Origin: Ptychodera flava
Lineage: Eukaryota; Hemichordata; Enteropneusta; Ptychoderidae
Reading direction: 5' to 3'
DNA length: 64,000 nucleotides
NCBI RefSeq assembly: GCF_041260155.1
Contig: NC_091928.1
Location: forward strand, 31,904,888-31,968,887
Part shown: positions 2,628-28,332 of the stretch, in pieces
How positions within the stretch are numbered: position 1 is the stretch's first letter
How the letters are laid out: each line of letters starts with the position of its first letter
The notes under the pieces: generated by a model
Databases searched by the model: none
The model's input: only the letters and a program-made list of their open reading frames with translations
Told to the model about the DNA's origin: nothing
Translations under genes and position numbers: made by a program

Positions 2628-3443
2628 CTACTTAGAAAATACTACGATTTCATCACGGGACTGGTACCATCCACTAACAACAGCAATTCTATCACCGTCG
2701 GCGGTCACTGCCATGTACCAGGGCAATCTCAATTCACGATGGAAAAGATGACGTAGCCACGTTGTATCTTCACTCCAAATCGAAATCCTAGCATTGCTGT
2801 GATCACAAACATAAACATTGTCAGCGCCATCAACGGCAATGCTGTATGGGTGGCACAGCTGAGCATTGCCGTGACCGAACTGACCGTATTTGTACAGGTA
2901 ATTGAACTGAGTGTCAAAACACTTGATGCAGTGATTGCCAGTCAGACACCATGATGACATCCCTACTGTTGACAGCGACAAAGCGGGGGTAGTTGAATTC
3001 TGTATCACCATCTCCTCGATGACCAAACTCTCCAATGTACATTCCGTCCAGGCTGTACTTCAGGACGCGATGACCGTTGACCTCTGTAACAATAACAAAC
3101 CCCTTCACAAGAGCTATGCACTGGGGATCTGAGTCTGCAGGTAGGTTAATTATTCTGATAACTTTATTATTTTGATCACAAACAACTATTTGCACATTAT
3201 TCTTATCAAGGATGAAGTAGAGGTTGTCTTGAGAGACAGCTATGGACCATGGCTTGAATGGCTTGGCAAACTGACCACTGAAACTGCCCAACTCCTTTTC
3301 ACAAGTGTAATCTTGGTTCAGTATGTGTACAATATTGTTGTCGCTGTCACACACCAAAAGTTTATCATTGTGGAATGCCAGACCATTTACATCTTTGAAC
3401 TTGTGTCCTTGATGACCCTTCAGAGTTCTTCTTGACCATCGCC
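2628..3443 (-). CDS. NHL beta-propeller exon, likely last exon of the GT-NHL gene
   Basis: This exon encodes about 270 residues of NHL-type repeats, the propeller found at the C-terminus of TRIM2/TRIM71-like proteins, where it binds RNA or protein. Repeats are seen in phrases such as VNGLAFHNDKLLVCDSDNN and HPYSIAVDGADNVYVCDHSN. It begins after a pyrimidine-rich acceptor ending TTTCAG at 3444 and enters in phase 1, matching the phase-1 donor of the repeat exon at 9690. It ends IVVFSK-stop (2628-2630), the same style of ending as the TRIM copy at 55.8 kb. One frame break lies near 2939: after VSDW the frame is lost, and the neighbouring frame resumes with NHCIKCFD, as if two bases were missing. 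It could be a sequence error, a polymorphism or real decay. Membership in the GT gene rests on phase and order only. Confidence 0.6.
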
Positions 3444-3455
3444 CTGAAAGGTTAA

Positions 3456-4694
3456 AGGTCAAAGGTCAAACAGGATAAGTAGAACTGAGATAGAAATGCA
3501 CTGACATAGTGACAATAGGCTGTACCAGAACTGATAGATATACACTGAAGCTGAAAGCAGATATGGATTCACATTAAACTAAATCACAAAGTCAATCATT
3601 TACCTAAACTTTTTAGTTTATTTATTATCATCATCTCATAAATAAAATTTTTACCATGGCAACACAATAAGTGAATGTTCTGTCGAAGATAGTCATTTCC
3701 AAATTTCATCAACAAGACAGCAAGTTTCATGTGTAGTTTATTGACCATATTTGATTATTAACATATTATTGTAACGAAGATTACTTTGTCTGGCGTACTT
3801 GAATAGATGACAACCTCGCTGCCATAGCAATACTTTTTATAGATTTTGGTTCAAAATTTGTCACTTGATCTTGTGTGTTTTGACCTGAAAGGTCAAAGGT
3901 CAAGGCAAGATCACAGAATAAGCAACAGAGATGTGTAGACAATCTGACTGTACAGTAATTCAAATACCTGTGAAATATGAACAAATATTGACACAAATTC
4001 AATTGCACCGTCATGATAATTACACAGCCAAGCTCCTCCCTTGATGTTTTAATGCCCTATTACCATGGCAACACAATGAATACAAGTTTTTGTCAACAAA
4101 TGACCTTTTCCGAATATTTTATAGTGTAAAACAATGCAGCTCGTAGATGTGTGTTGTTGATCATACTTGTGCTGCTGTATCCTAAACATACTTGAATGTT
4201 TAATTTAGTAAAAATTAATCAAGTAAAAGCCATGTTGCCATAGCAACACATTTGTAGACTATGATTTAAAAGTTCTCATCTTTTTATATCGGCTACGTGT
4301 AGGGTCACATCAAAAATTCTTTGAAAATGTATTTTGGATAAAGCAAGTGCACTGTTCTATAGGCCAAAATTGCTGACTCTACAAATGATAGATGATAATA
4401 AAATACTCTTTTGGTGAAAAAATGATATTTCTGCTATTATGCCATGAATCTTTCAAGTCACTCTCTATTCAATAATAATACATTTGTAAAATTATAGATC
4501 ATAAATTATAGTTTAATACTGGTTGTCACCAGTGTTTTCCAAAAATAATGTTCCCGTAATGCTGTGGTTGTCTCTCTGAAAGATACTGTTACCTTGGAAT
4601 CGGAGAACTTCATGTCGCCATGACAGTACTTTTGCAGTTTTAGTTCATTATTCTACAATATTTATTGACCAATGCCATGAAAGGTCAAAGGTCA
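3456..4694. promoter_or_regulatory. Three perfect DR1-type hexamer pairs
   Basis: AGGTCAAAGGTCA, a direct repeat of AGGTCA spaced by one base, occurs at 3456-3468, 3890-3902 and 4682-4694. DR1 is the classical site for HNF4, COUP-TF and RXR-type nuclear receptors. However, on the minus strand the first copy is also the pyrimidine tract of the acceptor of the NHL exon, and all three lie in related diverged repeats. They may therefore be copies of an acceptor-side intron sequence rather than selected receptor sites. Confidence 0.25.
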
Positions 4695-4953
4695 TAGATG
4701 AAGGCAGGATAAATATAAAAAATAACACCTATAGTAGCTCTTATACCTTGAAATGAGAACAGTTATTCACTACAAATTAAGTTGCATCAAAAAGTAAGAT
4801 GATAACTTAATTTTAATGCCTTTCACTGTGGTGATTAAAAAATTGTCTGCCTTTCAGCAAAATGAAACATTGGTGGACATGAAGAAAGTTTATTTGAATT
4901 GTTAGTAACCTAGTGTTAGGGTTATTTAGAGCCCCCTACAGCATCCCTTTTAT

Positions 4954-5144
4954 AGTTTGTAAGCAGTGTGCCCTCTAACTAACAGGATTATAGAAAACTT
5001 TTGAGTCAATTTGAAAATTTGCTAATTTTTCTTGAGTCACCATGTATTATTTCCTATTCAACTCAAAATTTTCTTGCGTCACAGAGAATTTTTTTTGCGT
5101 CATGGCGCATCATATTGGCTTAGAGGGCACACTGTTTACAACCT
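4954..5144. mobile_element. Short inverted-repeat element (MITE-like)
   Basis: The ends carry CAGTGTGCCCTCTAA at 4964-4978 and its complement at 5120-5134, and the similarity continues outward to about 24 bp. There is no coding capacity. The interior has four TTGAGTCA/TTGCGTCA-like octamers. The CAG...CTG ends suit a hAT-type non-autonomous element, but I see no clean 8-bp target duplication. Confidence 0.55.
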
Positions 5145-5589
5145 AAGGTGTGTCCACAAATCTTCAGTCATCCCTATCTTTCTAAAAAGTTAATTCCCAG
5201 AGGCCAGTAACATCATGAAATTTTTGTCTTTTATAAATTTTACTTGTTTATATCATGTCACTGTGGTAAACAGTTGGTGACATGCTCTGAATGATTGCTT
5301 TGGGACAAAGTTATGTTGCCATAGCAGCACTTTTTTGATATTGGTTCAAACTTCAAAAATTCTCATTTGTATTCTTTGTTGGTTCAGCCTGAGTGAAATT
5401 CTTTCAAAATACACATGTTTATCAGCAAGTACTGTGTTTCATCAGCAAACTGATTGATGGTCTCAGTTGATAACAAAGTACAGTTTGTCATTAAAAAATA
5501 TATTTTTGCAATTACTGAAAAAAAGTATATTGTTTCCCCGTCATTGTGCTCGTCATGTGAAGATATGCGCGTCACAACTTTTTTTAATT

Positions 5590-5818
5590 CTGAAAAATCA
5601 TGAAAATAAAACACGTACTGATATAAAACCAAATGTGAACTTGGACATGTCCTGATGTACATTGTACATTGAATCGTGAAAATGGAACTAGCAGAAACAT
5701 AACATCTACATGTGAAGTCATATTATGGATCATTTGGTATGTTCAACAAATGTTCTGAAATTCTGAAAAATCTTGAAAATAAAACACGTACTAACCAAAT
5801 GTGAACTTGGGCATGTCC
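5590..5818. repeat. Direct repeat of about 60 bp
   Basis: A block running from CTGAAAAATC to GGACATGTCC at 5590-5652 recurs at 5763-5818 with a short internal deletion and a few substitutions. It is a local duplication with no coding content. Confidence 0.7.
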
Positions 5819-5901
5819 AGATTTTGAATGCCAGGATAAAGTATCTGCACTAATGTTCTGAAATTTTCCTCATGTTTGTTTCTTTCTGTGGCAGCCATTT
5901 T

Positions 5902-7177
5902 TGCTCACGTGTTCACATGTCTGTCTGTTGGTCCAATATCTCAAAAACTGCTGATCAGATCAGAATTAAATCTTGTACATAGATTCAGTTAGGAAATGGC
6001 AAGAACTAATTAGTTTTTGGTGGGTGTGGCTTGCATACTTTTTTGCTCATTTGCATAATTAATGATTTTTGAAAAAAATGGATATACAATTTGATGAGAT
6101 TTGCTACAAATGTTGATCACACCAAGATATATCAGCAGTGAGAACCATTAACGGGTGACATGAAAGATAGTGTTTAATGAACTTTCTTAATTAGAGATAT
6201 ACCCGGTATATCTGATTTGACTTGTTCAAAATTGACCAAACTTGGTATATGTATTGAAGATTCTATGATTTAACATTATTAAAAGTCATTAAGCATTTTA
6301 ACTTCACCCAATTCCCAATTTACATATTTAATGAACTTTGCTAATTAGGGATATATATTTGAATTGACTGGATCAAAGTTGATGAAACTTGCTACATGTA
6401 TTGAAGCTACTATGATACAACATTCTTGAAAGTCATTAAGCATTTTTACATCAGCCAATTCCTAATTTGCATATTTAATGAACTTTCCTAATTAGGGTAT
6501 ATATCTGAATTAACTTGATTGTAGTTGTTGAAACTTGCTATATACATCAAAGATACTGTGATATAACATTATTGAAAGTCAAAAGACATTTTTACTTCAG
6601 CCAATTCCTAATTTGCATATATAATGAACTTTCCTAATTAGGGATATATATCTGAATTGACTTGACCAAAGTTGATGAAACTTGCTATATACATTAAAGA
6701 TACTATGATACAACATTATTGAAAGTCATTAAGCTTTTTCTTTTTCAGCCCATTCCTAATTTGCATTTTCAATGACCTTTTCTAATGACTGATATATACT
6801 TGGATTTTCCTGATCAAAGTTGGCAAAACATGCTATGTACATTGATGATTATACCAGGTTAAAACAATATCGAAAGTCATTTCACATTTTCATGTCAGCT
6901 AATTTATAATTTGCTTATCTAATGAGCTTTCACAGTTCAGCATATATGGCTTAAAGGACTTGGCCAAAGGTAATTACACTTGCTATGACAGCAGTCAAAG
7001 AACTTTAATATTTTTATTTCAGCTAATTACATATTTGTATACTTCATGACCTCTTAGAATTAATCGGCGGTGAATATTGATCATTATGTTGATCATATTA
7101 CTTTGAATGAAGTTGCAAACATGTGCCAAAGGTTCAAATTTACACATAACTACAATATATAATGAAACACGTGAGCA
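5902..7177 (+). mobile_element. Inverted-repeat element with internal array, copy A
   Basis: The ends are TGCTCACGTGTT (5902-5913) and AACACGTGAGCA (7166-7177). The interior is a degenerate tandem array of 6-7 units of about 147-154 bp, marked by AATGAACTTTCCTAATTA-like phrases near 6176, 6330, 6477, 6623, 6769 and 6920. A second copy lies inverted at 23.7-25.2 kb. Similarity to that copy continues about 20 bp beyond the right inverted repeat. TGGCAGCCAT occurs just outside both ends (5889-5898 and 7202-7211) and could be a 10-bp target duplication. No coding capacity is seen, so it would be non-autonomous. Confidence 0.7.
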
Positions 7178-7211
7178 TTTCAGTTCATATCTGGTACTTT
7201 ATGGCAGCCAT

Positions 7212-8169
7212 GTTTGAATGCCCCTAAAAAGTGCAGCCTGGCCATTTTAATACCCCCTAAAAAATAGAAAGAAATGAAAATGAAATTGGATGACTGCATC
7301 AGTTTTGAATCCACCCAAGGACGATACACATTTTCTTTTGTTTTTTTGGCCTTATGTAATGCCAGTGTCCAAAACAAACCCCTCAGACTATAAATTTTGT
7401 CAAATCCAAAATATTAATAATATTGTTACCATATATTGTATACTCATTTTGCAGCTGGATGTTTCCATTCCTATAAACTGCCGAAATTGTTTTGGTTATT
7501 GAAGATCACTTGAAATGATGTATTTCAATATATCAATTGTTTTATTACAATGATTCCTTTCTCTCTGTTACATGACAGTTTCAAGCAATTGTGATGGCAT
7601 GAGACTGCATATTGAGGTTGGATATTTTGTATATAATTGAATCATTTTACATACGTAAAATTCAAATTCTACTTTCGAGACCATGCAGAAGAAGAAGTGC
7701 CCGTGTTATGTGGTGATCCACTTAAAATCAGTGTGTTCTCAAATCAATATTTATCACAGTGGTCTTACTATTTTCAATGTGTTTTGACCGTCGCATGTAC
7801 CGTATACCCTTTGCTGTTACATTTCAGCATGTTTGAAATACAGTCCAGTTGTTCAAGTTGTTCGTCAAACTGTTTTCATTGTCGTACAATTCGAATTGGT
7901 GGTGTAAATTTATTGAATGGTGCATCGTATTTTGTAGTCAGTTTTTTTCATCAATCGAGTGCAGAAGTGAAATTACGCATGTAAATACAGCTATTACGCA
8001 ATTTTAGTAGACTAATGCGTATGCCATACGTGAGGAGAAAAAAGTTATAGTGAATACTTAGTGGTTCTCTGATTTGACATACTGTCACAACAGTTATATA
8101 TCACAGATATTTTTTATGTTTATACTGGCACTCTTTCATTAACATCATCATTTTGGTTTTGTCCCCCGC
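7212..8169. other. Intronic stretch without a gene
   Basis: A plus-strand open frame at 7637-7984 (115 codons, Cys/Ser-rich) has no family resemblance and no obvious splice context; I treat it as chance. Nothing else is seen. Confidence 0.5.
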
Positions 8170-8226
8170 AAACACACACACACACACATGCACACACACA
8201 CATATCATATATATACCATATATATA

Positions 8227-8294
<68 letters not shown>
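8170..8294. repeat. (CA)n-(TA)n microsatellite
   Basis: A run of CA dinucleotides is followed by a short CATATATAC block and then about 33 AT repeats ending at 8294. The Ile-Tyr open frames across it on both strands are artefacts. Confidence 0.95.
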
Positions 8295-8296
<2 letters not shown>

Positions 8297-8903
8297 AAAA
8301 TTCAGAAAAATATCTGGTATCTGAATGTAAAGGGAAAGAATTTTATTTTTCAATTTCTAGTGGTAATACCACTGGAAAGGAACCCAGGTGGCAATTCTGA
8401 AAAATCCAGTGGCAATGTGAAGTGGTCATTAATGGATACAGGGGATAACTGGGTGTATTTTGCAAGTATATTTTCAGCTGCATTCTGTCAGTGTTCACAG
8501 TACGATATAGCTTTTAATAAGCTGAGGCTTCTCATTTGCTAATTCATGTAAAATCTGTTAGCCATGAGTGGCCAAATTTTTTTAGCTTGTTGTTGTAACA
8601 TATAGTTCTCTGGCACCATCAAATGTAACGGTATGCCCACACTTTAAATGCTGTGAAGATTTAGTGTAGGAAATATCTTCAGTGCCACAGTATACCTTAA
8701 AACAACCTACAAAACCCATTATTACAATATTACCTCACATATAGATGAATAACTAAGTCATGTTGTACTGTATTTAGTATTAGTATTTAAAGCGTTGTTT
8801 GAAGACACTGCCTTGTAGGAAATCTTTAAATAGACTCTTATGTATCAAGCCTTGAAATATGAATGCAAGAACAGAAATCCTGTGTATAGGAAAAGATTAC
8901 TGG

Positions 8904-9559
8904 AGGGAGAAAGTGACGCTCTCTTGCAATTGGTGAGAACCCCTTGTTATTCTCACCACAATCAGTGAGAATTTTTTAATTTTCACTGAGTGGTGGAGAA
9001 ATGCACTCCTTGGTGAGAATCAAGTATGATAACAGATTCTCACTGGCAAGACTGGAAATTCTCACCAAGAACAGTTAGAATGGTAATTTTCACACTGATA
9101 ATGTATTATTCTCATCATTCACCAGTAATAATGAACTAGACTTGCCGTTCATTGGTAAGAATGACCAGATTTGCTGTTCATTGGTTGTTCTCGTGAGTGA
9201 ACTGAGAGTCTGGTTCACTCTTATTTTACCAACAAATAGAGAGTCTGGTTGATTCTCACCAGTGAATGGTGAGTCTGGCTGATTCTTACCAGTGAATGGA
9301 GAATCTGGCTGATTCTCAGCAGTGAACGGTGAGTCTGGTTGATTTTCACCAGTGAATGATGAGTATGATTCATTCTCACTGTAAAAATTACCATTCTGGT
9401 GAGAATTTCAAGTCTCACCGGTGAGAATCTGTTATCATACTTGATTGTCACCAAGGAGTGCATTTCTCACTGCTCACCAGTGAGAATTAAAATATTCTCA
9501 TCGATAGCAGTGAAAATAAACAAGAAATTCTCACCAATTGCGAGAAAGCTTCACTCTCT
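8904..9559. mobile_element. Foldback element of about 650 bp
   Basis: The left arm (about 8904-9100) and right arm (about 9370-9559) are inverted copies; both include GCAATTGGTGAGAA at the outer side and the ATCAAGTATGATAACAGATT phrase (complement in the right arm). Between the arms lies a run of roughly 30-bp repeats of the type GAGTCTGGTTGATTCTCACC. The minus-strand open frame over 9221-9463 is a product of these repeats and is not a gene. Confidence 0.75.
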
Positions 9560-9689
9560 AACTCAAGTCTTGCAATTTAAATATAACTGTATCTTTGGGC
9601 AATGCATATTGCACATAATCTGATCAAGATACTGCTTCTTAAGCAAATATGGTGCAAGTATTTTGTAACTGTAGTCTGTATATACTGAC

Positions 9690-10643
9690 CAGCTACACTA
9701 GTTGCTGGTCCACCAAAGATTGCCTTCTTAGACTCTGAACCACTGGCCTCTTTACCACTGACATCTGTACCACTTTGTCCCTTTTTACTACCAGGTATCA
9801 CCGTACCACCAGACATCACAGAGGAAGCTGGACCACTAGACAACTCTTTACTACCACTACCAGCAGTAACTGAACTCCTCTGTTCCATTTTACTTCCAGG
9901 TGACACTGGACCACTAGACAACTCTTTACTACCACTACCAGCAGTAACTGAACTCCTATGTTCCATTTTACTTCCAGGTGACACTGGACCACTAGACTTC
10001 TTCTCAGAGGACACTGGACCACTAGACTTCTTCTCAGAGGACACTGGACCACTAGACTTCTTCTCAGGTGACACTGGACCACTAGACTTCTTCTCAGAGG
10101 ACACTGGACCACTAGACTTCTTCTCAGGGGACACTGGACCACTAGACTTCTTCTCAGAGGACACTGGACCACTAGACTTCTTCTCAGGTGACACTGGACC
10201 ACTAGACTTCTTCTCGGAGGACACTGGACCACTAGACTTCTCAGATGACACTGGACCACTAGACTTCTTCTCAGAGGACACTGGACCACTAGACTTCTTC
10301 TCAGGTGACACTGGACCACTAGACTTCTTCTCAGGTGACACTGGACCACTAGACTTCTTCTCAGAGGACACTGGACCACTAGACTTCTTCTCAGGTGACA
10401 CTGGACCACTAGACTTCTTCTCGGAGGACACTGGACCACTAGACTTCTTCTCAGGTGACACTGGACCACTAGACTTCTTCTCAGAGGACATCGGACCACT
10501 GGGCGACTCTTCACTACCAGCAGTACCTGAACCATGCTGTTGCTTTTTACTTCTGGACATCACTGCACTGCCCCCTGTTTCATCTGAACCACCAGAGAAG
10601 AGTTTCACCATCCTGCTGATAATGCCACCAGTTTTTTTCTTCT
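9690..10643 (-). CDS. Exon with about 17 Ser/Pro/Glu/Lys decapeptide repeats
   Basis: The exon starts after acceptor CTCACAG (10644-10650), enters in phase 1 (KKKTGGIISRMVKLFSGGSD), and ends in phase 1 at a GTCAGT donor (9684-9689), giving about 318 residues. The core is about 17 tandem copies of SSGPVSPEKK or SSGPVSSEKK, one of them nine residues long, followed by looser copies with PGSKMEQRSSVTAGSGS. The composition is disordered, with many SP sites that could be phosphorylated. The two repeat versions partly alternate, so the DNA grew by 30- and 60-bp steps. It is placed in the GT-NHL gene by phase and order: the coiled-coil exon upstream ends in phase 1 and the NHL exon downstream starts in phase 1. 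It could be a spacer between coiled coil and propeller. The ATG at 10609-10611 could alternatively start a separate protein. Confidence 0.65.
9990..10495 (-). repeat. 30-bp coding minisatellite
   Basis: About 17 near-identical 30-bp units, each containing ACTGGACCACTAGACTTCTT on the plus strand. Units differ mainly in AGAGGAC versus AGGTGAC, which gives SSEKK or SPEKK. One unit lacks three bases and keeps frame. Such an array is expected to vary in length between individuals. Confidence 0.9.
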
Positions 10644-10912
10644 CTGTGAGTGAATAAAACCCTTGTCAATGGTAGGTAACCTCAGTGTTGTGGTTTTATT
10701 TTAAAACACACCAAACTGACACATACTTGCTCTGTAATTACCAGAATCACTCACCTCAACAGACTGAAATTGAATGTCTCACACAAATTAGAAAATTTCT
10801 ATCCAACTTATGTGAAACAGAAAGTACCAAAAGAGTGTGAGACTTTCCATTTCAGCTGATTGATATGTAGAAATAGTTTTCATCTCACTCCATCTCACTA
10901 CTGGCACTATAC

Positions 10913-12246
10913 CAGGGAAAGACACTAAGGGTTGTCAGATTGCCGGGGCAAGTGAAAGACGCATTCGGACAAGTGAAACGCCAATGCCACTTGCCCGATG
11001 GGACAAGTGAAAAAATAATTACCTAGAAATCAAATCCATGAGATCGATTTTCTGATGTGGGAACACCGACTTAACAACAAATAATAATCATTTCATGTCA
11101 TTGTGCAAACTAGCATAAAATTTTCACAAAATTGCGTGATCGTTTTCAATAAACAATACCATCGGTTAATTACCGTACGCTCGTTGAGTGTACGTCCACA
11201 AAGTTCCTTGCCCTCACAAGACAAGATTATGGTGTCTCATGTCTTTACGATCAAAAAGGAGACACAAGCAGTTGTTTACGACACTATAAAAATAAAATTA
11301 GGTAGCAAAAATTAGCACCAAAAATGTACTCTACAATGCAATGTTCAGTTCAATGACTGGCATTCACGGATGGCATTGTACCGGTAGAAAGACTGCATAC
11401 AAAGATGACAGCATGGTCACGAGCAAGGTTTGGTGTTAACTGGTCCATTCTTTGAATTTTCAATGAACACTGACTAATTTTCAGGTCAATAAGCCGAAAG
11501 TTACTTGTCCGTGGCAACCAACCTCTCTGTTTGTGAATTTTCCCATTCTAAAATGACTGTCAAGAAGCAATCAGACCGAATTTCACATCGAGAAATTCAG
11601 CTTTCAAAACAGATCGCAAACTCGCCGACACCCTTAGTTGTTGATTTAAAGTTACTGAATCTGGCATGAGCATTCAAAAGACCACCTAGGTCATCAGAAA
11701 AACAGAATACTGGTATACTCGGTAGTGTATGTAATGATAACTTCATAGTGGTGAGGGATGATATACGCTGTGTAAAACATGACAAAGAAGTACATTATTT
11801 TCAGAAGCTTCTAAACATTCCTTTATAACTTCTAAAGATTTTTTCTTTCTGTATAGTTCAGTTAAAACTGTAAAAAATACCTTGAGGTACCATGGAAATT
11901 GCCGTTATTATTTGTACATTATTATAACCCTAAGAAAGTTAACGTACAAGCATATAAAATATTATAAATTTTTAATGAATATTCATGATCATGAATATTA
12001 ATGGCTGTCCAGCACTCTTGGAAGTCTGGGGAGCATAGTGAGAGAGTAACTGACATTTTTCACTATATCATGAAGTTGATATATAACATGATAAAGTTTT
12101 GAAATAAAGTGTGTGAAATAAAAAATCACTGCCTTTGCTTTTTTCAAAACACATAATTTTACTGGGCAAGTAGTTTTCCAATTCGGGCAAGTGAACTTAA
12201 CCCCCACTTGCCCTTCGAGTGGATAAAAAATAAGTGTCTTTCCCTG
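10913..12246. mobile_element. CAGGG-ended non-autonomous element (hAT-like)
   Basis: The ends are CAGGGAAAGACACT (10913-10926) and its complement (12233-12246). Both end regions carry several GGGCAAGTG or CACTTGCCC motifs in either direction, as expected for subterminal transposase-binding repeats of hAT elements. The interior has no convincing coding region. The 8 bp on either side (CACTATAC and TATCCCTG) do not match, so the hAT assignment rests on end sequence only. Its right end lies 17 bp from the stop codon of the exon candidate at 12264. Confidence 0.6.
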
Positions 12247-12263
12247 TATCCCTGACAGTCATC

Positions 12264-12346
12264 TCATTGTTTTGGTTTTTTCTCCTCCTCAATCTCATTG
12301 ATTTTAGGTTTGATGTACACATTATCTGCTGAAGGCTCAGTCACTT
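12264..12346 (-). CDS. Possible alternative terminal exon of the GT gene
   Basis: After acceptor AAATTTAG (complement at 12347), a phase-1 frame encodes about 27 charged residues, including EVTEPSADNVYIKP and EIEEEKKPKQ, and then a TGA stop (12264-12266). Phase 1 fits the coiled-coil exon at 14775. If used, it would end the protein before the decapeptide and NHL exons. A CAGGG-ended element begins just past the stop, so an older donor or 3' UTR may have been disturbed by the insertion. It is short and may be chance. Confidence 0.35.
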
Positions 12347-12699: not shown

Positions 12700-14620
12700 A
12701 TTTCAGTGATAATTGTATGTTTTACTCTCAATCCAATATGGCTGCCAAACTGTATGACCAATCCAAATGCCTTTCACAAACTTGAAAGTGCTCACAGTAA
12801 AAATGATATGGGTAACAGGTCAGTGGAATTGGTGTGTTCGTTCTGGAGAAGCAGATTTTTTAAGATTAAATTGCGATTTTCACAAAATCCAAGATGGTGG
12901 CCAAACCACAGGACCGATCCAAATGCTGTTTGCAAATTTTAAACAGATCACTCTAAGGATGACATGAGTAAAATTTCAGCTCAATCGGTGTGTTTGTTCT
13001 GGAGAAGAAGATTTTTAAAGATTAAATTGCGATTTTAGCAAAATCCAAGATGGCGGCCAAAACGCGTGACCGATCAAAACGTCTTTCGCAAACTTGAAAG
13101 AGATCACTCAAGGATGGCATGAGTAAAATTTCAGCTCAATCGGTGTGTTGGTTCTGGAGGTGAAGATTTTAAAGATTAATTGGTATTTTTCCTAAATCCA
13201 ATATGGCAGCCAAATCACGTGACCGATCCAAATGTGTTTTGCAAACTTGAAAGAGATCACTCTAAGGATGACATGAGTAAAATTTCAGCTCAATCGGTGT
13301 GTTAGTTCTGGAGAAGAAGATTTTTGAAGATTAAATTGGTATTTTTTGAAAATCCAATATGGCAGCCAAATCACGTGACCGATCCAAATGTCTTTTGCAA
13401 ACTTGAAAGAGATCACTCTAAGGATGACATGAGTAAAATTTCAGCTCAATCGGTGTGTTTGTTCTGGAGAAGAAGATTTTTAAGATTAAATTGCGATTTT
13501 CGAAAATCCAATATGGCGGCCAAATCACGTGACCGATCCAAATGTCATTTGCAAACTTGAAAGAGATCACTTTAAGGATGGCATGAGCAAAATTTCAGCC
13601 AAATCGGTGTGTTGGTTCTGGAGAAGAAGATTTTTAAAGATTAAATTGCGATTTTCGTAAAATCCAAGATGGCGGCCAAATCATGTGACCGATCCAAATG
13701 TCTTTTGCAAACTTGAAAGAAATTACTCTAAGGATGACATGAGTAAAATTTCAGCTCAAACGGTGTGTTAGTTCTGGAGAAGGAGATTTTTGAAGATTAA
13801 ATTCGTATTTTTCGAAAATCCAATATGGCGGCCAAATCACGTGACCGATCCAAATGTATTTTGCAAACTTGAAAGAGATCATTCCGAGGATGACATAAGT
13901 AAAATTTCAGCTCAATCGGTGTGTTAATAATAATAATAATAATAATATAGTAATAATAATATTTATTTCTTAAAAAACGCCTTCCATGTAAAAAACAACA
14001 CCTCAAGCGCAGAACATACCAAAGTAAAGTTTAAAAAGTTACAGATTTAAAATACTAATAAAAATAATCTTTAAAAAGGTAAGTTTTAACGTGAGATTTA
14101 AAAACATTATAGTCGTTAAAACAGCGGAACTCGGATGGAAGCTTATTCCACAACGTGGGTGCTGAAATAGCAAATGACCTGTTACCATAAAAGAGGTTTT
14201 ACCAATTGGTTGATGCAAACTTAGTGTACCCTCAGCAGTCGAACGAAGGGTGCGACCAGGAACACGGATATCAAAAAGTTCTTTCAAATACAGAGGAGCA
14301 ATGTCATGTAAAACTTTGTAAGTTAAACATAAAAGTTTAAACTCAATACGCTTATGAACGGGCAGCCAGTGTAAACTATACAACACAGGTTGAATATGAT
14401 CTGCTTTCTTTGTCACTGTGACCAAACGTGCAGCAGAATTTTGAACCAATTGTAATTTCTTGAGTTGATTATGTGGTAAGCCAAAAAGTAAGTAGTTCTG
14501 GAGAAGAAGATTTTTGAAGATTAAATTGGTATTTTTCAAAAATCCAATATGGCTGCCAAATCATGTGACCGATCCAAATGTCTTTCGCAAACTTGGAAGA
14601 GATCACTCTAAGGATGTAAA
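12700..14620. repeat. 155-bp tandem satellite, about nine units
   Basis: Units recur with their ATGGCGGCC-type core at about 12739, 12893, 13049, 13203, 13359, 13513, 13669, 13824 and 14549, spaced 154-156 bp except where a LINE fragment splits the array. A typical unit holds AAGATGGCGGCCAAATCACG, then TGACCGATCCAAATG, AACTTGAAAGAGATCACT and AAAATTTCAGCTCAATCGG. The outer units are more diverged, the usual sign of unequal exchange in the middle. Open frames here are artefacts of the period. Confidence 0.9.
13925..14493 (-). mobile_element. 5'-truncated LINE fragment, CR1/L2/Jockey-type RT end
   Basis: The minus strand encodes about 150 residues like the C-terminal end of a non-LTR reverse transcriptase ORF: GLPHNQLKKLQLVQNSAARL, then DHIQPVLYSLHWLPVHKRI and LTYKVLHDIAPLYLKEL. 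The 3' end is a (TTA)n tail, seen on the plus strand as TAATAATAA from 13925. The RT core is absent, so the copy is strongly 5'-truncated and cannot move on its own. Both edges fall inside one satellite unit: ...CGGTGTGTTA on the left and AGTTCTGGAGAAGAAG on the right. The array is therefore older than the insertion. Confidence 0.85.
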
Positions 14621-14774: not shown

Positions 14775-15284
14775 CCTTATGTACTATTTCAGAAGTGATT
14801 ATTTGTTCACCAAGCTGAAGACTCTCTTCAGTTTTCATCTGTGGTTCAATATCAGATTGTGCATCAGATAACTTAGATAGCTTTGCCTTCAGTTCAGTTA
14901 TAACTGTGTTTTGTTCTTTGAGCTGAGTTTGTAAATCTTCAATATTTTTGGGATCAACCTTTTTCAGTTTAGCTGTAAGTGCTACTTTTTCAGCACTATG
15001 ATAGCGCTGCTTGTATTCCTGACACTGCTTTTCCAGCTGTGATTTTTCCTCTAGTGCTTCAGCCAATTGCGTTTCCACAATTTGCTTTTCTGTGCAAGCT
15101 TTTTCAAGTTGACTTTGTAAAGACTGAACTTTAGACTCAGCTAGTGCCAAGTATCTGATGTCAGAATCTGTAAGTTGTTGTTCACTGGGTTTGATTGGTA
15201 GCAAACTTCTAGCCTGTGACTCTTGTGCTGCTGTGATTGGCTGAGTTAGTTCACCATGTTGAGCGACAAGTTTTTCCTCAAAGT
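14775..15284 (-). CDS. Coiled-coil exon of the GT-NHL gene
   Basis: The exon lies between acceptor TTTATTGCAG (at 15285) and donor GTGAGT (ending at 14774). It is phase 1 on both sides and encodes about 170 residues, starting FEEKLVAQHGELTQPITAAQ. A heptad-rich stretch (for example AESKVQSLQSQLEKACTEK, LAEALEEKSQLEKQCQEYK and DLQTQLKEQNTVITELKAKL) predicts a long coiled coil and hence oligomerisation. The end, EIVHKG, leads into the intron. The frame joins exactly to the short exon at 18646, which ends with one base of a Gly/Asp codon. No family can be named from a coiled coil alone. Confidence 0.75.
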
Positions 15285-16043: not shown

Positions 16044-18212
16044 ATTTTCAATTTATGTGTCACACCTTCCGTCCGTTTGAGAAGGGAGGCAATTTTGGAG
16101 CATGTCAGCACAGAGCAACACAAAGATGCAGTACACAGAGAAATGTTGCAAAGAGTATCGGTCTTTCAAAAGCAGATTGATGAGAAAAAATGTGTCAGTG
16201 ATACTGTACTTGAGAAAACATTCACAGCAATCTACTGGCTTGCAAAGCAGGAAATTTCCAATGAGAAACTGGTTCCGCTTATTGAATTACTTGAATCACT
16301 AGGAGTTGATGAACTCAAGTATTTTAATCACAGGAGCAGGCCATCCATCAGGGAAATGTTTATTTCTCTCGGGGAAACAGTGAAAGAGATTGTCTTGGAC
16401 CAAATTAGGAAGTGTAAATCATATGGGGTTCTAGCCGACGAGGTGACAGACGTAGCAGTTATGCAACAGCTGATTATTTTTGTTAAGTACTTTGATGAGG
16501 ATGCCGGAATTGCTAAAACCGACTTTCTTGGCCTGGAATCTATTTTGGAATCAGAGGGTGCAAATGCCGAAATTGTCACTCAAAAACTAGTACACTGTTT
16601 AGAGGAGTGTCATTTACTCATAAACAATCTCAAAACTTTTGTTAGCGATGGTGCTAGCACCATGGTTGGTAAACATAATGGAGTGGCAGCAAGACTCCGC
16701 CGCTTAAATGCATTAATATTGAATTTTCATTGTATATGTCATAAATTGGCTTTAGCTTGTATGGACACTGAAAAGGATGTCAGTTACATCCGAGAGGTTG
16801 CAAACACCTTAACTCATGCCTGGAGCTTTTTTGAACATTCCCCAAAAAGAACAAACGTGTTTGTGAATGTTCAAACAGAATTGGCAAACATGAGTTTGTC
16901 TGAAAAGTGTAAAAAATATGTTGGTAAAAAAATTAAGAAAGCATGTGCAACAAGATGGTTATCCTTTGATAGTAGCGTAAAAAGTGCATATGAAAACTAT
17001 GTTGGTTTGTTGCATACTTTTAAAGCCCTTGATAGTGATCCTACAGCACTTGGGTTGTATAAAAAAATGAAGAAACCCAAGTTTCTGGGTGCACTCTACA
17101 TTTTAAACTCAGTTTTACCTGTTTTGAGTAACCTTAGCAGAACTTTTCAGACTGGGGCGTTAAACTTTTCTCATGTTTCACCTGCAATAAAGTATACACT
17201 AGCCAATCTATCCTCAATTTCATGTCCAGTACAAAAACTGGAGGAAGATTTAAAAGGCAGGTTGTCCTGTCTTGACATTGAGCTTCGTGACTTTGTCAAG
17301 AAGGAAATTTCTTCTCTACACACAAAATATATTGAGTGTATAAAGAAAAACATTGAACGCCGATTTAATGATAGTCTGAATATTCTCACCAGTTTCCACA
17401 TATTCAACCCACTTGAGCTGCCAAACCCTGATTCACTGTATGAGTTCAGAAATTATGGAATAAGTGACATTGAGACTTTGGCTGACCATTTCTACCAAGA
17501 AGAGCCAAACAAAGATGTTCTAGCCCAAGAACTTCAAGCTGAATGGGCAAAATTTAAGTTTGATATGCACAGTATGCAAAAACAGATACCAAGTGAGGTG
17601 AAAAACAAGTATGCAGTGAATCAAAATGACAGCAACAGTAAAGGGAAAAGAGTACTTGGTCCAGGTTCTAGCCAAGGTTTTGTTCCAACACCAATTGAAT
17701 GGACTTTAAAAAAAGTGTTCAACATGAAATCAGAGTATGGATACTTTTATCCAAAGTTAGTGGAAATAGTGGAAGTAGCTCTTTCTGCACCCATCACTAA
17801 TGCCTGGCCAGAACGTGGAGCTAGTGCTTTGAAAAGAATTAAAACCAGGTTGAGAAACAGACTTTCAAATAACATGGTGAATTCTTTGCTGCACATAACT
17901 GTCAATGGACCAGACTTGTATTCTAATGAAGCCAGAACTGTTGTGAAAAAAGCTGTTCAAAAGTGGCTAAGTATTAAGCCAAGGAAAAAACTAAAACAAT
18001 CAAAACTTCATAGGGAAGGAACAGAGACAAATGAAACAGACAAACAAAGCACAAGTACAACAATGGTAGATCAGAGTGTTCAGGTTGGGGAAGAGGATAT
18101 CCTAGAGAATTTGATTGATGAAATTCAACAGGCTAAAGCAGTATTTAATGATCTGTGCAATGTAGATTTAAGTGATGAGTCTGGATTTGAGGAAAGTGAG
18201 GGAGAATATTGA
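16044..18212 (+). mobile_element. hAT transposase gene, KIAA1586/ZNF862-like, in an intron
   Basis: One uninterrupted frame of about 711 codons (open from 16044, ending TGA at 18210-18212) encodes a hAT-superfamily DDE transposase. Visible landmarks are YGVLADEVTDVAVMQQL with the first acidic site, FVSDGASTMVGKHNGVAARL with the second, CHKLALACMD, ATRWLSFDSS, and the C-terminal dimerisation part NAWPERGASALKRIKTRLRN. Resemblance to vertebrate KIAA1586/ZNF862-type proteins is from memory. A BED zinc finger is not seen. The first codons lack an ATG, so the 5' end may be truncated or supplied by an upstream exon. An AAATAAA signal lies about 70 bp past the stop. I could not find matching terminal inverted repeats. 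It is antisense to the GT-NHL gene. An intact frame suggests recent arrival or domestication. Confidence 0.85.
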
Positions 18213-18721: not shown

Positions 18722-19764
18722 CTAAAACACAAATCACATACCGGTATATCAGAAAAAACATGTATGCAAAACTCTCCTCCGTACTGATGAAACAGCAGTT
18801 TGCCATGGCTAAGCACATTTCCTATGAATCACTGTAACCATTGTTGCCATATGTCTGTCAGATAGCATATTGAAATGTATGATGAACATGATATGATGTG
18901 GTATTCAAAAGAACATGTCACCTCAGAATCCTTAATGATATTGGCATTTACACATCCTTGCTGATAGTCAGTAGCATATTAGGCCATGATATGATGCAGC
19001 ACAGCACAATTCATGAACAACATTTCCAGGTCTACATGCATTCTACTGAATGTATACATTCAAATAAATGGTAGTTTGTTGCAATTCATTCTGATCTTAC
19101 TGATTTGGTGACTTGAAGGAAAAAATCTCACCGTATTCCTTGAGCAAATAACCCTTAATTCAGACAAGTATGATATTTGAGCATGATGTGTATGGCAAGG
19201 TGTCCCAAAGAAGTGCTATATATGAAGAGAATTTACCAAAATTTTGTGTACTGGCATATTCACTTGTGGGGAATTTACAGCTGCTATAAATAATATCAAT
19301 ATGTGGGCTTCTGGCATTTTAAAATGGTTGTTTATATAAATTGAGCACCAAAAAATGAGAATGCAGATTTCAGCATATAGCAAGTGTCATTGAATGAAAA
19401 TTCATGCTTTGTATCAAGTATTCTGAACAGTGGGTATAAATATAAATCACATGTGTGCTCAGCCATGAGAGTAGCATTCAGGCAGACCACTAAGAGTTAG
19501 TTTTTGAATGGTGAAGCGCCTCATGTTCACACTGGGCATTTCTTAAAGTTTTTTTTTCTAACTCTTAATAGCATTACTTACAGCATCACCATATACCTTC
19601 AATAATAGTTTAGGTCCTTTTTAGCACTGCCAAATAAACTTTCATGACCAGCAATGGACACTTAGCATACATAGCCGACTAATTATAAACATTTAAAGTA
19701 CTTATTGTTTGGTCACATTATATTAGCTTTAACGGTCTGAGATCCATGATGTATTTTCTCTTAC
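18722..19764. other. Intron without a visible feature
   Basis: I see no exon, repeat or element in this stretch. Confidence 0.5.
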
Positions 19765-19841
19765 CATTGGATCTATGTTACAATGACCTTCGTCTTCTAT
19801 TTCATCATGAAAAGTAAGTGGCTGAACTCCTCCACCATCTC
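19765..19841 (-). CDS. Short acidic exon of the GT-NHL gene
   Basis: A 77-bp exon between acceptor TTTCAG and donor GTAAGAG. It enters in phase 1 and leaves in phase 0, encoding RDGGGVQPLTFHDEIEDEGH and then CNIDPM once joined to the single base left by the exon at 22650. The residues are acidic and linker-like. No known domain is visible. Its support is the splice sites and the frame continuity on both sides. Confidence 0.58.
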
Positions 19842-22649: not shown

Positions 22650-23123
22650 TGTTGATGAAGAAATGTTCAATTTCTTCAAACTTCAAAGTGTCATATGTAG
22701 CCTTCAACTGCAGTGTTATTCCATGTTTGGCAGCTATCTCTCTCATTTCATCTGTTATCAGCAGTGGTTCCAGTGCTTTGGCCAGGTTTCTATATCTACA
22801 AGTCTGCTTCAACCTATAGAGATAATAAAGTGTTAAAATCTTCAGCAAGATTCCCAAAGACTCTGCTGTCACAGTTGTTGGATCCAGGCCAACTCTCTCT
22901 GTCCAGACTTTCTTTACTTCATTGCAACTGTCTTCATCTGCCAGCACAGCTTGCACTCTGCGTTTCATACAATGTTCACACTCTCCCCATGCAGCCTTCA
23001 CCTCAGTCTTTTTTGTTTCCTGCGGCCTTCTTAGTTGTACTGAAAGAGCTTTGGCTTGTTCTTCTAGTTCTCTGAGACTTTTGTAGAGCATGTCTTCATC
23101 CAGGGCTACTTTAACTAGGATAT
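22650..23123 (-). CDS. Helical exon of the GT-NHL gene, unknown family
   Basis: A 474-bp exon between acceptor TTATTCCAG (from 23124) and donor GTAAGTTG. It is phase 1 on both sides and encodes 158 residues starting DILVKVALDEDMLYKSLREL. Most of it should be alpha-helical: a Lys/Glu-rich N-terminal helix, a CEHCMKRRVQ segment, a hydrophobic helix SLGILLKILTLYYLYRLKQT, and ITDEMREIAAKHGITLQ. There is no zinc-binding set and no signal peptide. I considered a HEPN- or death-fold helical bundle but cannot support either. It joins in frame to the exons at 25456 and 19765. Confidence 0.72.
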
Positions 23124-23708
23124 CTGGAATAAGATAATAAAGCTTGCGTAAATAGTAAGTAGACACAGTGTGCTTGATAAAATTAACATGATGATTAAAT
23201 CAAAATTGTTGTTGGCCTATTTGTTTGTTATTTGTTCCTTAATTAAATGTTAATAAATTATGTGTAATTTGTACTGATGACCAATGCTAGCAATTTCTCG
23301 ACTAAAACTGCTGTTAGTAGTCCAACCGAAACATGTATACGGTAACTTTGAACATTCAACAGTTTGAATAATTGACATGTTTGATTCTTTTTACCTGAAG
23401 CTTTTGTGGCAAAGCGATGAAAGTAAACGATGAAAGAAATGATGTTATGGAAATAGTCTGCAAACATGTCCATGACTGACATCATACCTGTATAATCATT
23501 GATGTGGTTGTTCATTTAATGGTCATATAGTGTGCCAGAAGTCAAACCATTAAAATTGATCAACTGCTTCAACTTATTACGACAATTGCATTGTTACCAT
23601 ATATGTTTATAGACAGTCTTAATATTGTAGAATTTGTACAGCATTGAATGGTAACTACTTGATCGTGTGAGCCTGGAATTGTTTTAATACAATGATTACT
23701 ACTGTACA
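23124..23708. other. Intron without a visible feature
   Basis: No exon or repeat recognised before the inverted-repeat element that begins at about 23.71 kb. Confidence 0.5.
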
Positions 23709-23729
23709 ATACCAGATATGAACTGTAAA

Positions 23730-25145
23730 TGCTCACGTGTTTCATTATATATTGCAGTTATGTGTGATTTGAACCGTTGCCACATGTTTGCAACTTCACT
23801 GAAAGTATTATGATCAACGTTATGAACAATATTCACCACAGATTAACTGTATAGGTCATTAAGTATTCAAATACGCAATTAGCTGAAATAGAAATAATTA
23901 TTTTCTTTGACTGCTGTCATTTTATCACCTCTTTATATAGCAAGTGTAATTGCCTCTTGTCAAGTCCTTCAAACTATATATTCCAAACTTTGAAAGCACA
24001 TTAGATATGCAAACTATAAATTAGCTGACATGAAAACTTAAGTGCAAATGACTTCCAATATTGATATAACCTGGTATAATCATCAATATATTATGCCAAC
24101 TTTGATCAAATAAATCCAAGTATATATCCCTAATTAGGAAAGTTCATTAAATACACAAATTAGGAATTGGCTGAAGCAAAATGCTAAATGCCTTTCAATA
24201 ATGTTAGCCTACCAACTTTGGTCATGTAAATTCAAACATATATTCCTAATTTCAAAAATTCATTAAATATGCAAATTAGGAGCTGGATGAAGTAAAAATG
24301 CTTAATGACTTTCAATAACGTCGTATCATAGTATCTTTAATGTACATAGCAAGTTTCGTCAACTTTGGTCTAGTCAATACAGATAAATATCCCTGATTAT
24401 GAAAGTTCATTAAATATACAAATAAGGAATTGGCCAAAGTTCAAATGCTTAATGACTTTCAATAATGTTCTTCATAGTATCTTTAATGTACATAGCCAGT
24501 TTCGTCAACTTTGGTCTCGTCAATTCAGATAAATACCCCTAATTAGGAAAGTTCATTAAATATGCAAATTAGGAATTTGCCGAAGTAAAAATGCTTAATG
24601 ACATTTAAGAATGTTCTATCATAGTATCTTTAATGTACATAGCAAGTTTCATCAATTTTGGTTATGTAAATTCAAATATATATCCTTAATTTCGAAGGCG
24701 TTAAATATGCAAATTACGATTTGGATGAAGTAAAAATGCTTAATGACTTTCAATAATGTAAATCATAATGTCTTCAATATGCATACCAAGTTTCCTCAAT
24801 TTTGATCAAGTAAATTCAGATATATACCCCTAATTAGGAATTTCATTAAATATGCAAATTAGTAATTATCTTTCACGTCACCCCTTAATAACTTTCACAG
24901 CTGATTTATCTTGATGTGATCAACATTTGTAGCAAATCTCATCAAATTGTCTGAAGTCGTTCTCAATGTACCGGTATATCCCGTTTTCTAAAATCATTTA
25001 TTATGCAAATGAGCAAAAAGTAAGCAAGCCACATTCACTAAAAACTAATCAGTTCTTGCCATTTGCAAACTGAATCTATGTACCAGATTTGATTCTGATC
25101 TGATGAGCCGTTTTTGAGATATTGAGCACACAGACAGACAGACAC

Positions 25146-25181
<36 letters not shown>

Positions 25182-25222
25182 CATCGCTGCGACATATGCT
25201 GACGTGTGTGAACACGTGAGCA
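23730..25222 (-). mobile_element. Inverted-repeat element with internal array, copy B
   Basis: Inverted second copy of the element at 5902-7177. The ends are TGCTCACGTGTT (23730-23741) and AACACGTGAGCA (25211-25222). The interior again carries several units of about 147 bp with TTAATGACTTTCAATAATG- and AAATATGCAAATTAGGAA-type phrases. A (GACA)n microsatellite at about 25132-25181 replaces a short CTGTCTGTTGG stretch of copy A. Similarity to copy A extends through CCAGATATGAACTG outside the left inverted repeat (23711 onward). No coding capacity. Confidence 0.7.
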
Positions 25223-25455
25223 AAAAATGAACAGAACTCACACCTGAAATAACTGTAAAATGTTGGCTTGATTGTTGGAGCTCTAAATTTCAGGACTCAT
25301 GAATACGATGATGTATTAAGTAGAATGTTAGCTATGAACTGAAGCTGCCATCAAAGTGCTCATATTAACCTGTCTACTAACTACAGCATTGTATGATAAA
25401 CACTCTGTCCAGTTGCAAGGCAAGGTTCAGCTACTTGAATGTGGTGATAAACTAC

Positions 25456-25722
25456 CTTGTTGTTCATCATTTTGATTTCTGACCATTCCCTCCTCAGTAT
25501 TTGAGTTTTCATTTTCCATCTCTGACGGTGTGATCGTTGTTTGGCCATACTCTGTGTCTTCCTTATCTATCACATCATCACGTGTTTCTTCGATAGCTTG
25601 TCTACCAATACTGCCATCTCTAGTCACAGCTAGTGTTGATATTTTGCCATTTATTGATTCTGGAACTTGCTTTGTTGATTGTGTGCTCACTTCACAGTCG
25701 CTTGATGGTAAGCTTACATCAG
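25456..25722 (-). CDS. Ser/Thr-rich acidic exon of the GT-NHL gene
   Basis: A 267-bp exon between acceptor CTACACCAG (from 25723) and donor GTAGTTTATC (ending 25455). It is phase 1 on both sides and encodes about 89 residues including STQSTKQVPESINGKISTLA, EETRDDVIDKEDTEYGQTTI and EMENENSNTEEGMVRNQNDE. It is acidic, low in hydrophobics and probably disordered. The single base left by the GT exon plus CT makes an Ala codon, so the frame is continuous. No family is recognised. Confidence 0.68.
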
Positions 25723-25784
25723 CTGGTGTAGTGTAAGATTAAACAAGGGAAAACTGTCAGATGATGCTCTCGTAATTATGCTTT

Positions 25785-25985
25785 ACATTAATACTCACTG
25801 TATTAGCATGGATTATTGCCTGTATTTTAGCTGAAGAGTGCATATACAGATGAATACAGTCAAGAATCCTTTTTTTGTATTCAGCAAGCGTGTATTCATG
25901 TGGATTCATGTGAATTCACGTGTATTATACTATAATACAGGCAACTAAATGTGAATTTATCTGAATTATTGGGTTTTCATGCTTA
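25785..25985. repeat. 200-bp repeat, copy 1 (inverted mate at 55.3 kb)
   Basis: A block with TTGCCTGTATTTTAGCTGAA at one side and TTGCCTGTATTATAGT (complement) at the other. Inside it has alternating ATGAATACAG and GTGAATTCACGTGTATTA phrases. It matches 55318-55520 in reverse orientation with few differences. It is likely a MITE-like element, inserted in the first intron. Confidence 0.75.
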
Positions 25986-26592
25986 ACATTAATACAAACT
26001 TAGTTTTACCATATGCTACTTAGTGTAGCGTACTATTTTCAACAACTTACGTTAAAATTCATTACTGTCCACAAGTACAGTCACAATCTATGCCTTCCTT
26101 TTCCGTATTGCCCTTCATGGTTTACCTGACTTTTCACCATAACATTGTCATTAATATCAGCTGCAGAAGTGCCATAGAAGGCAAAATGAAAATGTTCTGG
26201 TTTCTTTGACTTCTGATACAAATGCAATATTGAATTTCAACATGCATTTAGGTTTCCAAAATTGACAAGTCTTTACAATGTAAAATTATGCTGATTTGTT
26301 TTCCTTTTATACAAAAATCATAACGACATTTCAAGTGACATTACTTTGTGAAGAATATGATATATGGATCGTTCGGGACATGGTACGTACAGTAGAGGAG
26401 AAAATGACTGAAGCAATTTTCTCTAAATGAAGTTCCTTAACTATGATAATCTTATATCTGCAAACAGGCAAAGAATCAAAAGCACTGCTTCTATATAATT
26501 TTCTGTTATCTGATTTACTACAATGATAGCAACAGCTATCCTGGTAAGATTTGCGTCTTTTTGGATATGTGATTTTAAACATAAATACATAC
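25986..26592. other. Intron 1 remainder
   Basis: No exon or repeat recognised between the 200-bp repeat and the donor of the GT exon. Confidence 0.5.
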
Positions 26593-28285
26593 CGCATGTA
26601 GCTACTTCCTGGCCTTTGCAGTCACCTTCATGTACTTTTTTTATTGGTTCCTGTAATAATGATGCAAATTTTGCAAAACTTTCAGTGATAGCTTCACACT
26701 TTGTCAGAGCTGCTTTCAGAGCGTTTGCCTTCTTGAAAGAGTCAGATGTCTTTTCTAAATGTTCCAATATTTTCTTTGACAGATTCACTTCACAGTCTCT
26801 GATGACACAGTAATCAGCACACATTTCTAAATGTTTCATTACAAAGTGAGCTAGGTGAGAATCATCATGGACTGAAGTAGGCAAACCGAAAGTCATCGCT
26901 TCCAAGCCATACAAGCTGTAATCCCAATAGCATGGTGAAGGTAGGCAGAGATGAGACTGTTGTAGAGATGTGAGTAGAGACTTTATTGAGTGCCCTGGCT
27001 TGAGTTTTGGGTACACATATGGACTTTCCGATGCATCAGCTAAAATCTTCTGTTCAGTCTTTCCCGCTTTTTTAGAAACTCCTTGTATCTTCCACTCTGG
27101 GTGGCTGCTGTAATGTTCTTTTCGACGATTAGCTACTGTACCAATGGAAGCTGCAATAGACTTGCACCTTTCTATGGCATTCTGTGTATCCATCTGACCG
27201 CATGATAGTATATGGTGTTGTGCGACCGGCTTTTCTTTTGGTTTTTTCACCCAGAAACACGTGTCTGGGCGTGGAAGAATCTCCTCATGTGGAATGCCTG
27301 ATAAGTCTCTACCCTGAACTTCTGCCCTGTATGCATTCTCAAAATAATCATGGATGTAAGGTCCTATGGAAAACAGGATGTCTGCCTCACTTGCCATTTG
27401 CAGCATCTTTTCTTCAAATTCCGACAGACCATGCTCTTCAGCTTGCAGACAGTTAGCTTCTGGACGAGCATGATTAATCAGAACTAGCTTTGCACCAGGA
27501 AAGAGTTTTCTCCTTATATCAGCTGCAGCACGTCCTGTCTTTGGAGCATAACCAATTACATATTGAACATTTTCTACTTCTCTCAGGTCTGGATAGTAGA
27601 TTTCATGATTCAGCAACCATTCTAACTTTTGAGGATCATCTCTGTGATCAGCTTTCTCTTTCCTCTGTGCTGGTATCAAGGTAACACCACAGCTCTCAGC
27701 ATCTTTCTTCTGGTCATCACTGATTTTGACATCAAGTACAGTAGAATACGCTTTCAGAGTTTCTCCTGCCTTGGCCTTCCTTTCACAAAAATCTTGGACA
27801 AGAGTTTTGTGAAATCCTGTAAGACCTAAGGCATCTTTGTTCCAGGCTTCGTTAATGAATACTGCTGCTGAGGGTTGATCAGGTGGTGGATGGAACTTGG
27901 CACCAGGGAAAACACTTTCTTGAAGTGCGGCTGCCGTCTTCTTGACATTTGAGGACAATGCAACAACATGGTTTATATTTTCTAATCGTCCAAGTCCTGG
28001 ATAGTAGGATTGATGAAAGAGAAGCCAGTTTGTTACTGGTGGATCTTCATCAGGATGAGATGATTTAGGTCTGGTAGCTGGAATCAAAGTTACTCCATAT
28101 CTTGCTGCATCTTCCTTTACTTCTTCACCCACATCAACATCAAGGACAGTGCAGTGAATTTTAGAAACTTCGGCTTGCTTCTTCTTCAGTGTATTTTCAC
28201 AGAAATCTGTGATCAGTTTCCAATTTGCTGGGCCATATGAATTTCTCTTCCATGATGTTATAAACAGTGCTGCAGATCCTTCCAT
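26593..28285 (-). CDS. GT-B/GT4-like glycosyltransferase exon with duplicated N-half
   Basis: An ATG at 28283-28285 opens 564 codons up to donor GTATGT (26587-26592). An acceptor TTTATTTCAG before 28332 makes this the first coding exon, behind a 5' UTR intron. Residues 4-130 and 139-267 are two copies of one Rossmann-like module: ALFITSW/AVFINEAW, TVLDV, GVTLIPA, W-LL-H--YYP, then FPGAK. After these comes EADILFSIGPYIHDYF, then ILSCGQMD, which sits where GT4 enzymes have their G-R-L-D strand. Next is YGLEAMTFGLPTSVHDD (459-475), the GT4 nucleotide-sugar motif. The first acidic residue of the usual E-x7-E is not conserved (DYSLYGLE instead), so activity is doubtful and a sensing role is possible. 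No signal peptide or membrane helix. It splices in frame to 25722. Confidence 0.85.
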
Positions 28286-28332
28286 TTTGTTTATTGCTAA
28301 GTTTCCAGATTGAATTGTTAGCTTCTTATCCT

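Follow-up and report, generated by a model that had tools for sequence, protein, structure and literature searches.

It has been reported by Kaur et al. in 2021 (PMC8195603) that animal GT4 domains occur among conflict and immunity proteins, partly together with a TRADD-N domain, and that these animal domains are closest to the bacterial conflict versions. The main text of that article describes GT4-TRADD-N-LRR proteins from cephalochordates, hemichordates and cnidarians, an Acropora digitifera repertoire of more than 500 GT4 paralogues, TRADD-N proteins of Branchiostoma in which a low-complexity linker and WD40 propellers occur, the fusion of TRADD-N to TRIM domains, an association with retrotransposons, and GT4-NACHT/AP-ATPase fusions, which are bacterial. 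Here, a stretch of 64,000 nucleotides from the hemichordate Ptychodera flava (assembly GCF_041260155.1, contig NC_091928.1, positions 31,904,888 to 31,968,887, hereafter the window) was analyzed with regard to a minus-strand locus that runs from 28330 to 2628 in the order E1, E2, E3, E4, E5 (with a stop), E6 (with a repeat) and E7 (with NHL sequence). Judged by its sequence, the locus belongs with the animal genes of the GT4-conflict type, and its exons E1 to E4 may run on via E6 to a C-terminal NHL propeller in E7, a reading that is put forward tentatively and at somewhat less than an even chance. The innate-sensor role called conceivable in the original prediction, which had been made from the letters alone, fits the family, given its Pfam name GT4-conflict and the fact that PMC8195603 assigns animal GT4 domains to proteins of conflict and immunity.

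The GT4 module lies in E1 (26593..28330), whose coding part of 1,693 bases extends from the start codon at 28285 to 26593 and ends in a phase 1 donor. E1 matches the Pfam profile PF20706 (GT4-conflict) with 119.2 bits against a cut-off of 26 (E 2.7e-34, two stretches, profile positions 15-374 of 385), which bears out the predicted GT4-type fold, and no other glycosyltransferase family in Pfam matches it at E up to 1. PF20706 is unspecific, since every one of 14 control genomes and 11 of the 14 virus records also contain matches above cut-off, and the name GT4-conflict alone is thus no proof of a conflict role; the score of E1 is twice that of the best match listed among these genomes and records (59.2 bits). 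When E1 is aligned with itself, residues 4-130 correspond to residues 139-266 (52 of 130 columns identical, E 1e-31). The duplicated GT4-like domain of the original prediction is therefore confirmed for the N-terminal half of the domain and not for the entire domain.

GT4 glycosyltransferase enzymes are marked by an EX7E signature. In profile alignments, the LEAM of E1 is aligned on the LEAM of GT4 proteins, which places the second Glu of EX7E at residue 462, and the first position of the signature is a gap in hhalign and Trp 454 on an ungapped count-back, with no acid there. These EX7E alignments are weak (1.5-2.0 bits in hmmsearch, 67-77% probability in hhalign), and the 117 GT4 proteins used for comparison were picked by a pattern that itself holds the first Glu, so they give no measure of its conservation. 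Read from these alignments, E1 appears to lack the EX7E signature of an active GT4 glycosyltransferase, and its catalysis may have been lost.

E1 is followed by E2 (25456..25722), which is acidic and linker-like and is matched by no Pfam family at E up to 1, by E3 (22650..23123), which encodes about 158 amino acids whose second half may hold a divergent TRADD-N-like domain, and by E4 (14775..15284), all three being of phase 1-1. E4 is coiled-coil-like, in agreement with the predicted coiled coil, though its coiled-coil matches in Pfam and NCBIfam are all below cut-off. Further downstream are E5 (12264..12346), an alternative 3'-terminal exon with a phase 1 acceptor and an in-frame stop, E6 (9690..10643), a decapeptide-repeat linker exon of phase 1-1, and E7, which is read in two frames (2938..3443 and 2628..2936). 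E1, E2, E3 and E4 all end in phase 1, with which the three downstream acceptors (E5, E6 and E7) are likewise compatible; this replaces the list 1-1-1-0-1-1-1 given earlier for the junctions. Spliced together in phase, E1 to E4 give a continuous open frame of about 2.9 kb.

The splice sites were scored with a metazoan matrix of approximate frequencies, a point that counts against the reading proposed here; the 95th percentiles of the region's AG and GT sites are 6.29 and 5.73. The acceptors of E1, E2, E3, E4, E6 and E7 score 9.67, 6.26, 8.52, 6.74, 8.88 and 9.06, that of E2 lying slightly under the 95th percentile, and the donors of E1, E2, E3, E4 and E6 score 7.41, 5.87, 6.57, 10.64 and 7.13. 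The acceptor of E1 is upstream of the start codon at 28285 and suggests a putative 5' untranslated exon. A blind scan picked out the highest-scoring acceptor and donor of every stop-to-stop open reading frame (ORF) of at least 90 residues. The best sites of E2, E3, E4 and E6 are of phase 1 on both sides (4/4), while 13 of the 70 other ORFs, a set that includes E1 and the frames of TRIM, hAT and retroelement type, have both sites at 5.8 or above, and phase 1-1 is found in one of the 13, the antisense of E6. The chance of such a pattern is, by our own arithmetic, 5/2380 = 0.002, and the shared phase speaks for E6 being internal to the gene that contains E2 to E4.

The predicted decapeptide minisatellite is present in E6 at 9980-10500, where Tandem Repeats Finder reports a period of 30 bp, 17.5 copies and 92% matches, and it reads SSGPVS(S/P)EKK. 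A second 30-base array (9241-9379, 4.6 copies) lies just past E6, and the minus-strand ORF at 9090-9407 is open as decapeptides. NHL repeats (PF01436) are found at 3443-2631 with 48 bits in one frame and 28.1 bits in another, against a cut-off of 20. The first frame of E7 (2938..3443, E 9.2e-13, three stretches) holds blade 1 to part of blade 4, and the other (2628..2936, E 1.9e-6) holds the remainder of blade 4 to blade 6 and the stop; the predicted NHL propeller is thus upheld in its repeats, all above cut-off, and not in an intact frame. The two frames abut inside one blade, the first reaching 2938 and the second beginning at 2936. The second part can be aligned from its first residue with a neighbouring TRIM-NHL copy (34.6% identity over 107 columns), so the blade sequence is continuous across the frame change. 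The eighth exon of the original prediction is, on this sequence, most likely a frameshift within NHL blade 4, either a sequencing error or a broken allele. Frame-restoring GT-AG pairs number 209 (donors from 3243 downward, at least 40 bases apart, leading to the stop at 2628), as is expected of such short motifs; an intron inside the NHL exon was considered, with the candidate pairs unscored, and was rejected by reading because it would remove blade sequence. Translated as it stands, the sequence yields a long form of 1,475 residues that ends at 2914, some 3.5 blades into the propeller.

E3 resembles a TRADD-N domain by eye. A TRADD-N domain is expected as an α/β fold with the uS motif between strands 2 and 3. 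Two results speak against this identity: the profile PF20694 (TRADD-like_N) has no match to E3 or its pieces at E up to 10, where human DEDD2, used as a positive comparison, matches at 9.7e-10, and the single-sequence models of E3 are all-helical and of low confidence (mean predicted local distance difference test, pLDDT, 50.2 and 62.2). Gapped local alignment of E3 with DEDD2 scores 39 and 48 under two gap settings, values equalled by 157 and 52 of 5,000 shuffles, respectively; in the same comparison, scores of 24 to 33 are obtained for three other proteins of the model. The best ungapped segment with DEDD2 scores 38 (equalled by 4 of 400 shuffles) and lies on a diagonal that pairs the uS serine with a serine of E3, the tiny residue of the uS motif being Glu in E3. 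Human TRADD reaches 40 without gaps (6 of 400 shuffles) off the uS diagonal, so such scores arise out of place too, and its gapped alignments with E3 are not significant and give no in-place match. Compared with PDB folds, the low-confidence model has 55 matches at E up to 10 and none at 0.001. E3 also has a Pfam match to Flu_M2 (E between 0.028 and 0.11, no more than 15 bits against a cut-off of 25), which was rejected as a chance match on a hydrophobic stretch. It is an evenly balanced question whether E3 holds a TRADD-N domain.

The end of the gene depends on the choice between E5 and E6. E5 accepts E4 in phase and runs into the stop at 12264, which gives an E1-E5 product of 1,008 residues; the single donor scored ahead of this stop is weak (0.31), so the in-frame continuation leads from E4 directly to E6. 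The junctions E4-E6 and E6-E7 are also in phase and the acceptor of E6 is strong. A stop 22 bases upstream of the E7 acceptor closes the frame, so E7 requires an upstream exon with a phase 1 donor, and E6 supplies one; the interval between E6 and E7 contains three minus-strand ORFs of at least 90 residues, with coding scores of -1.33, -5.57 and, for the repeat ORF, 4.85. The need of E7 for a phase 1 donor, together with the acceptor and phase of E6, makes E4-E6-E7 the preferred path, with an ending at E5 as its main rival, and the complete chain is rated below even odds. The good splice sites and phases of the original prediction hold along E1-E2-E3-E4 and E4-E6-E7; E5 has a stop and a weak acceptor (3.52). 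The coding scores are 7.45 for E2, 9.84 for E3, 6.84 for E4, 15.75 for E6, 2.89 and 3.42 for the two NHL parts, and 2.51 for E1 when it is excluded from training; the values for E2, E3, E4, E6 and the two NHL parts all exceed the 99.9th percentile of the null windows (0.85) and count in favour of the proposed reading.

Besides the approximate splice frequencies, a number of points weigh against the continuation to E7. The exons were originally proposed by seeking consistent phases, and the donor that the blind scan ranks highest in the E1 ORF scores 8.4 and is not the donor of the model. The coding null (99.9th percentile 0.85 in 2,000 windows) was drawn from the background-training sequence, and a decoy, the repeat ORF that lies between E6 and E7 (9090-9407), itself scores 4.85, so the coding score is unspecific. 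The score of E6 is raised by its array; outside the array, three frames of the 5' flank are nearly equal (7.53, 5.87 and 5.76), and the 3' flank scores 11.46 against 9.36 on the opposite strand. E5, in turn, scores 6.71 in frame over 78 bases and accepts E4 in phase, and the first ATTAAA (a variant poly(A) signal) 3' of it on the same strand is at 11976. An ATG at 10611 is in frame within E6, and E6 and E7 therefore possibly form a gene of their own. An intact frame over the six NHL blades, as counted by reading, was not found.

The main rival is a division into two genes, in which a GT4-conflict gene E1-E5 ends at 12.26 kb and the repeat and NHL exons belong to a separate decaying gene or relic. 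This is a serious possibility, held with a probability of about a third: E4 and E5 join in phase into a stop with a coding-like terminal exon, a variant poly(A) signal is present at 11976 and an in-frame ATG in E6 at 10611, the other NHL genes of the window are degenerate, and the NHL sequence at E7 is frameshifted; against it stand the weak E5 acceptor compared with that of E6 (8.88), the phase 1-1 of E6 as in E2 to E4, and the first AATAAA past the E5 stop, which occurs only at 10700. Alternative splicing of one gene, whose short product would end at E5 and whose long product would run via E6 to NHL, agrees with E5 and E6 both accepting E4 in phase 1, and it is unlikely, the weak acceptor of E5 speaking against it as well. 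A very improbable explanation is that the whole locus is a pseudogene or a set of fragments assembled by mobile elements: the introns do carry a hAT transposase ORF, a terminal inverted repeat (TIR) element and tandem repeats, and the NHL frame is broken, but the in-phase open frame of E1-E4 and the coding-like scores of E2 to E4, and of E1 under exclusion from training, are at odds with it. The single gene reaching to NHL, as originally predicted, is thus plausible by its phases and splice scores and is qualified by the rival end at 12.26 kb and the frameshifted NHL sequence. We infer both the joins between the exons and the TRADD-N identity of E3.

On the proposed reading, E1-E4 would supply a GT4 module enlarged by an additional N-terminal half-lobe, followed by an acidic linker, a candidate divergent TRADD-N-like adaptor and a coiled coil, and along the likeliest path the protein would continue from E4 through a flexible repeat linker to an NHL β-propeller. 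The propeller at the linker end might bind a stress ligand or one derived from an invader, while clustering of the protein might be brought about by its coiled coil and TRADD-N-like part. The GT4 module could act as an effector or, given the absence of the first EX7E Glu, could bind a sugar nucleotide or a glycan instead of working as an ordinary glycosyltransferase. As the propeller is frameshifted in this sequence, the allele would be damaged or misassembled. That all these parts, namely a GT4-conflict domain without the first EX7E Glu, an extra half-lobe, an adaptor, an expandable linker and an NHL sensor, form one protein acting as a tethered sugar-binding pseudoenzyme receptor is doubtful; if it were true, the reach of the receptor could be altered by the number of minisatellite repeats. 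If the long transcript is real, NHL would join the domains found behind conflict-type animal GT4 domains, with a C-terminal propeller reached via a fast-changing minisatellite linker near degenerate TRIM-NHL genes and mobile elements, and it would offer a handle on whether animal GT4-conflict domains are enzymes or binders. Otherwise, the gene is an ordinary animal GT4-conflict member beside an NHL relic.

The window also contains two degenerate, apparently intronless TRIM-NHL genes on the minus strand (44377-46290 and 55847-58066) with several frame changes. The gene at 55847-58066 has RING, B-box, filamin and NHL matches above cut-off, and that at 44377-46290 has B-box and NHL matches above cut-off and a partial RING by tblastn; in the B-box and coil part, the two share 82% identity over 257 columns. 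The intron between E3 and E4 holds a 722-residue open frame (16044-18212, plus strand) with a hAT dimerisation match of 24.7 bits (cut-off 21.4). The TIR element (10913-12246, 1,334 bases) begins 17 bases past the E5 stop and has perfect 14-base arms at 10913-10926 and 12233-12246. Intron tandem arrays are located at 12730-13926 (156-base units) and at 6207-6931 and 24213-24867 (147-base units). On the plus strand, retroelement-like frames extend over 33957-38034, with a reverse transcriptase match at 35437-36261 (27.6 bits, below the cut-off of 29.6), a YqaJ-like viral recombinase domain is encoded at 41297-41632 (E 1.8e-13), and a frame at 61638-62138 carries CGNTESNPGP ahead of a coiled-coil-like part, a motif that we take to resemble 2A-like peptides. 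No tRNA was found within the window.

Among the papers searched, none contains both words TRADD-N and NHL and none uses the term GT4-conflict, and no GT4-NHL protein was named in the titles and abstract openings searched. Relatives of E1 were not found by peptide patterns (23 stretches matched) or a DNA pattern in genome contigs of a non-eukaryote collection, nor in viral contigs, plasmids, PDB sequences, PADLOC and NCBIfam, which are not eukaryote genomes; relatives of E3 were absent from PDB sequences, plasmids and PADLOC, the best NCBIfam value being 0.14 to an unrelated model. One virus record and two plasmids likewise gave no match to the TRADD-like_N family, a negative that carries no weight, as none of the 14 controls matched either. 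The word NHL is likewise absent from the main text of PMC8195603.

Compared with the metazoan GT4-TRADD-N-LRR proteins, as far as the main text of PMC8195603 describes them, the present gene has in common a GT4-conflict domain in first place, a candidate TRADD-N-like part next, further domains behind and mobile elements nearby, and the setting of degenerate TRIM-NHL genes and mobile elements is similar to that in PMC8195603. Unlike them, it has no LRR match (Pfam, E up to 1, 10 ORFs scanned) and NHL instead, and its TRADD-N is not confirmed; the absence of the first EX7E Glu and the duplication of the N-terminal half of GT4 are two further features that may set it apart. With TRIM-NHL E3 ligases, two degenerate genes of which lie in the window, the locus shares the NHL propeller, but the exons scanned have no RING, B-box or filamin match in Pfam, and E7 needs an upstream exon, whereas the neighbours look intronless. 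With the Branchiostoma DED-TRADD-N-linker-WD40 proteins, as given in the main text of PMC8195603, it would differ in having NHL in place of WD40 and GT4 in place of DED, and would share the order of an adaptor, a low-complexity linker and a C-terminal β-propeller.

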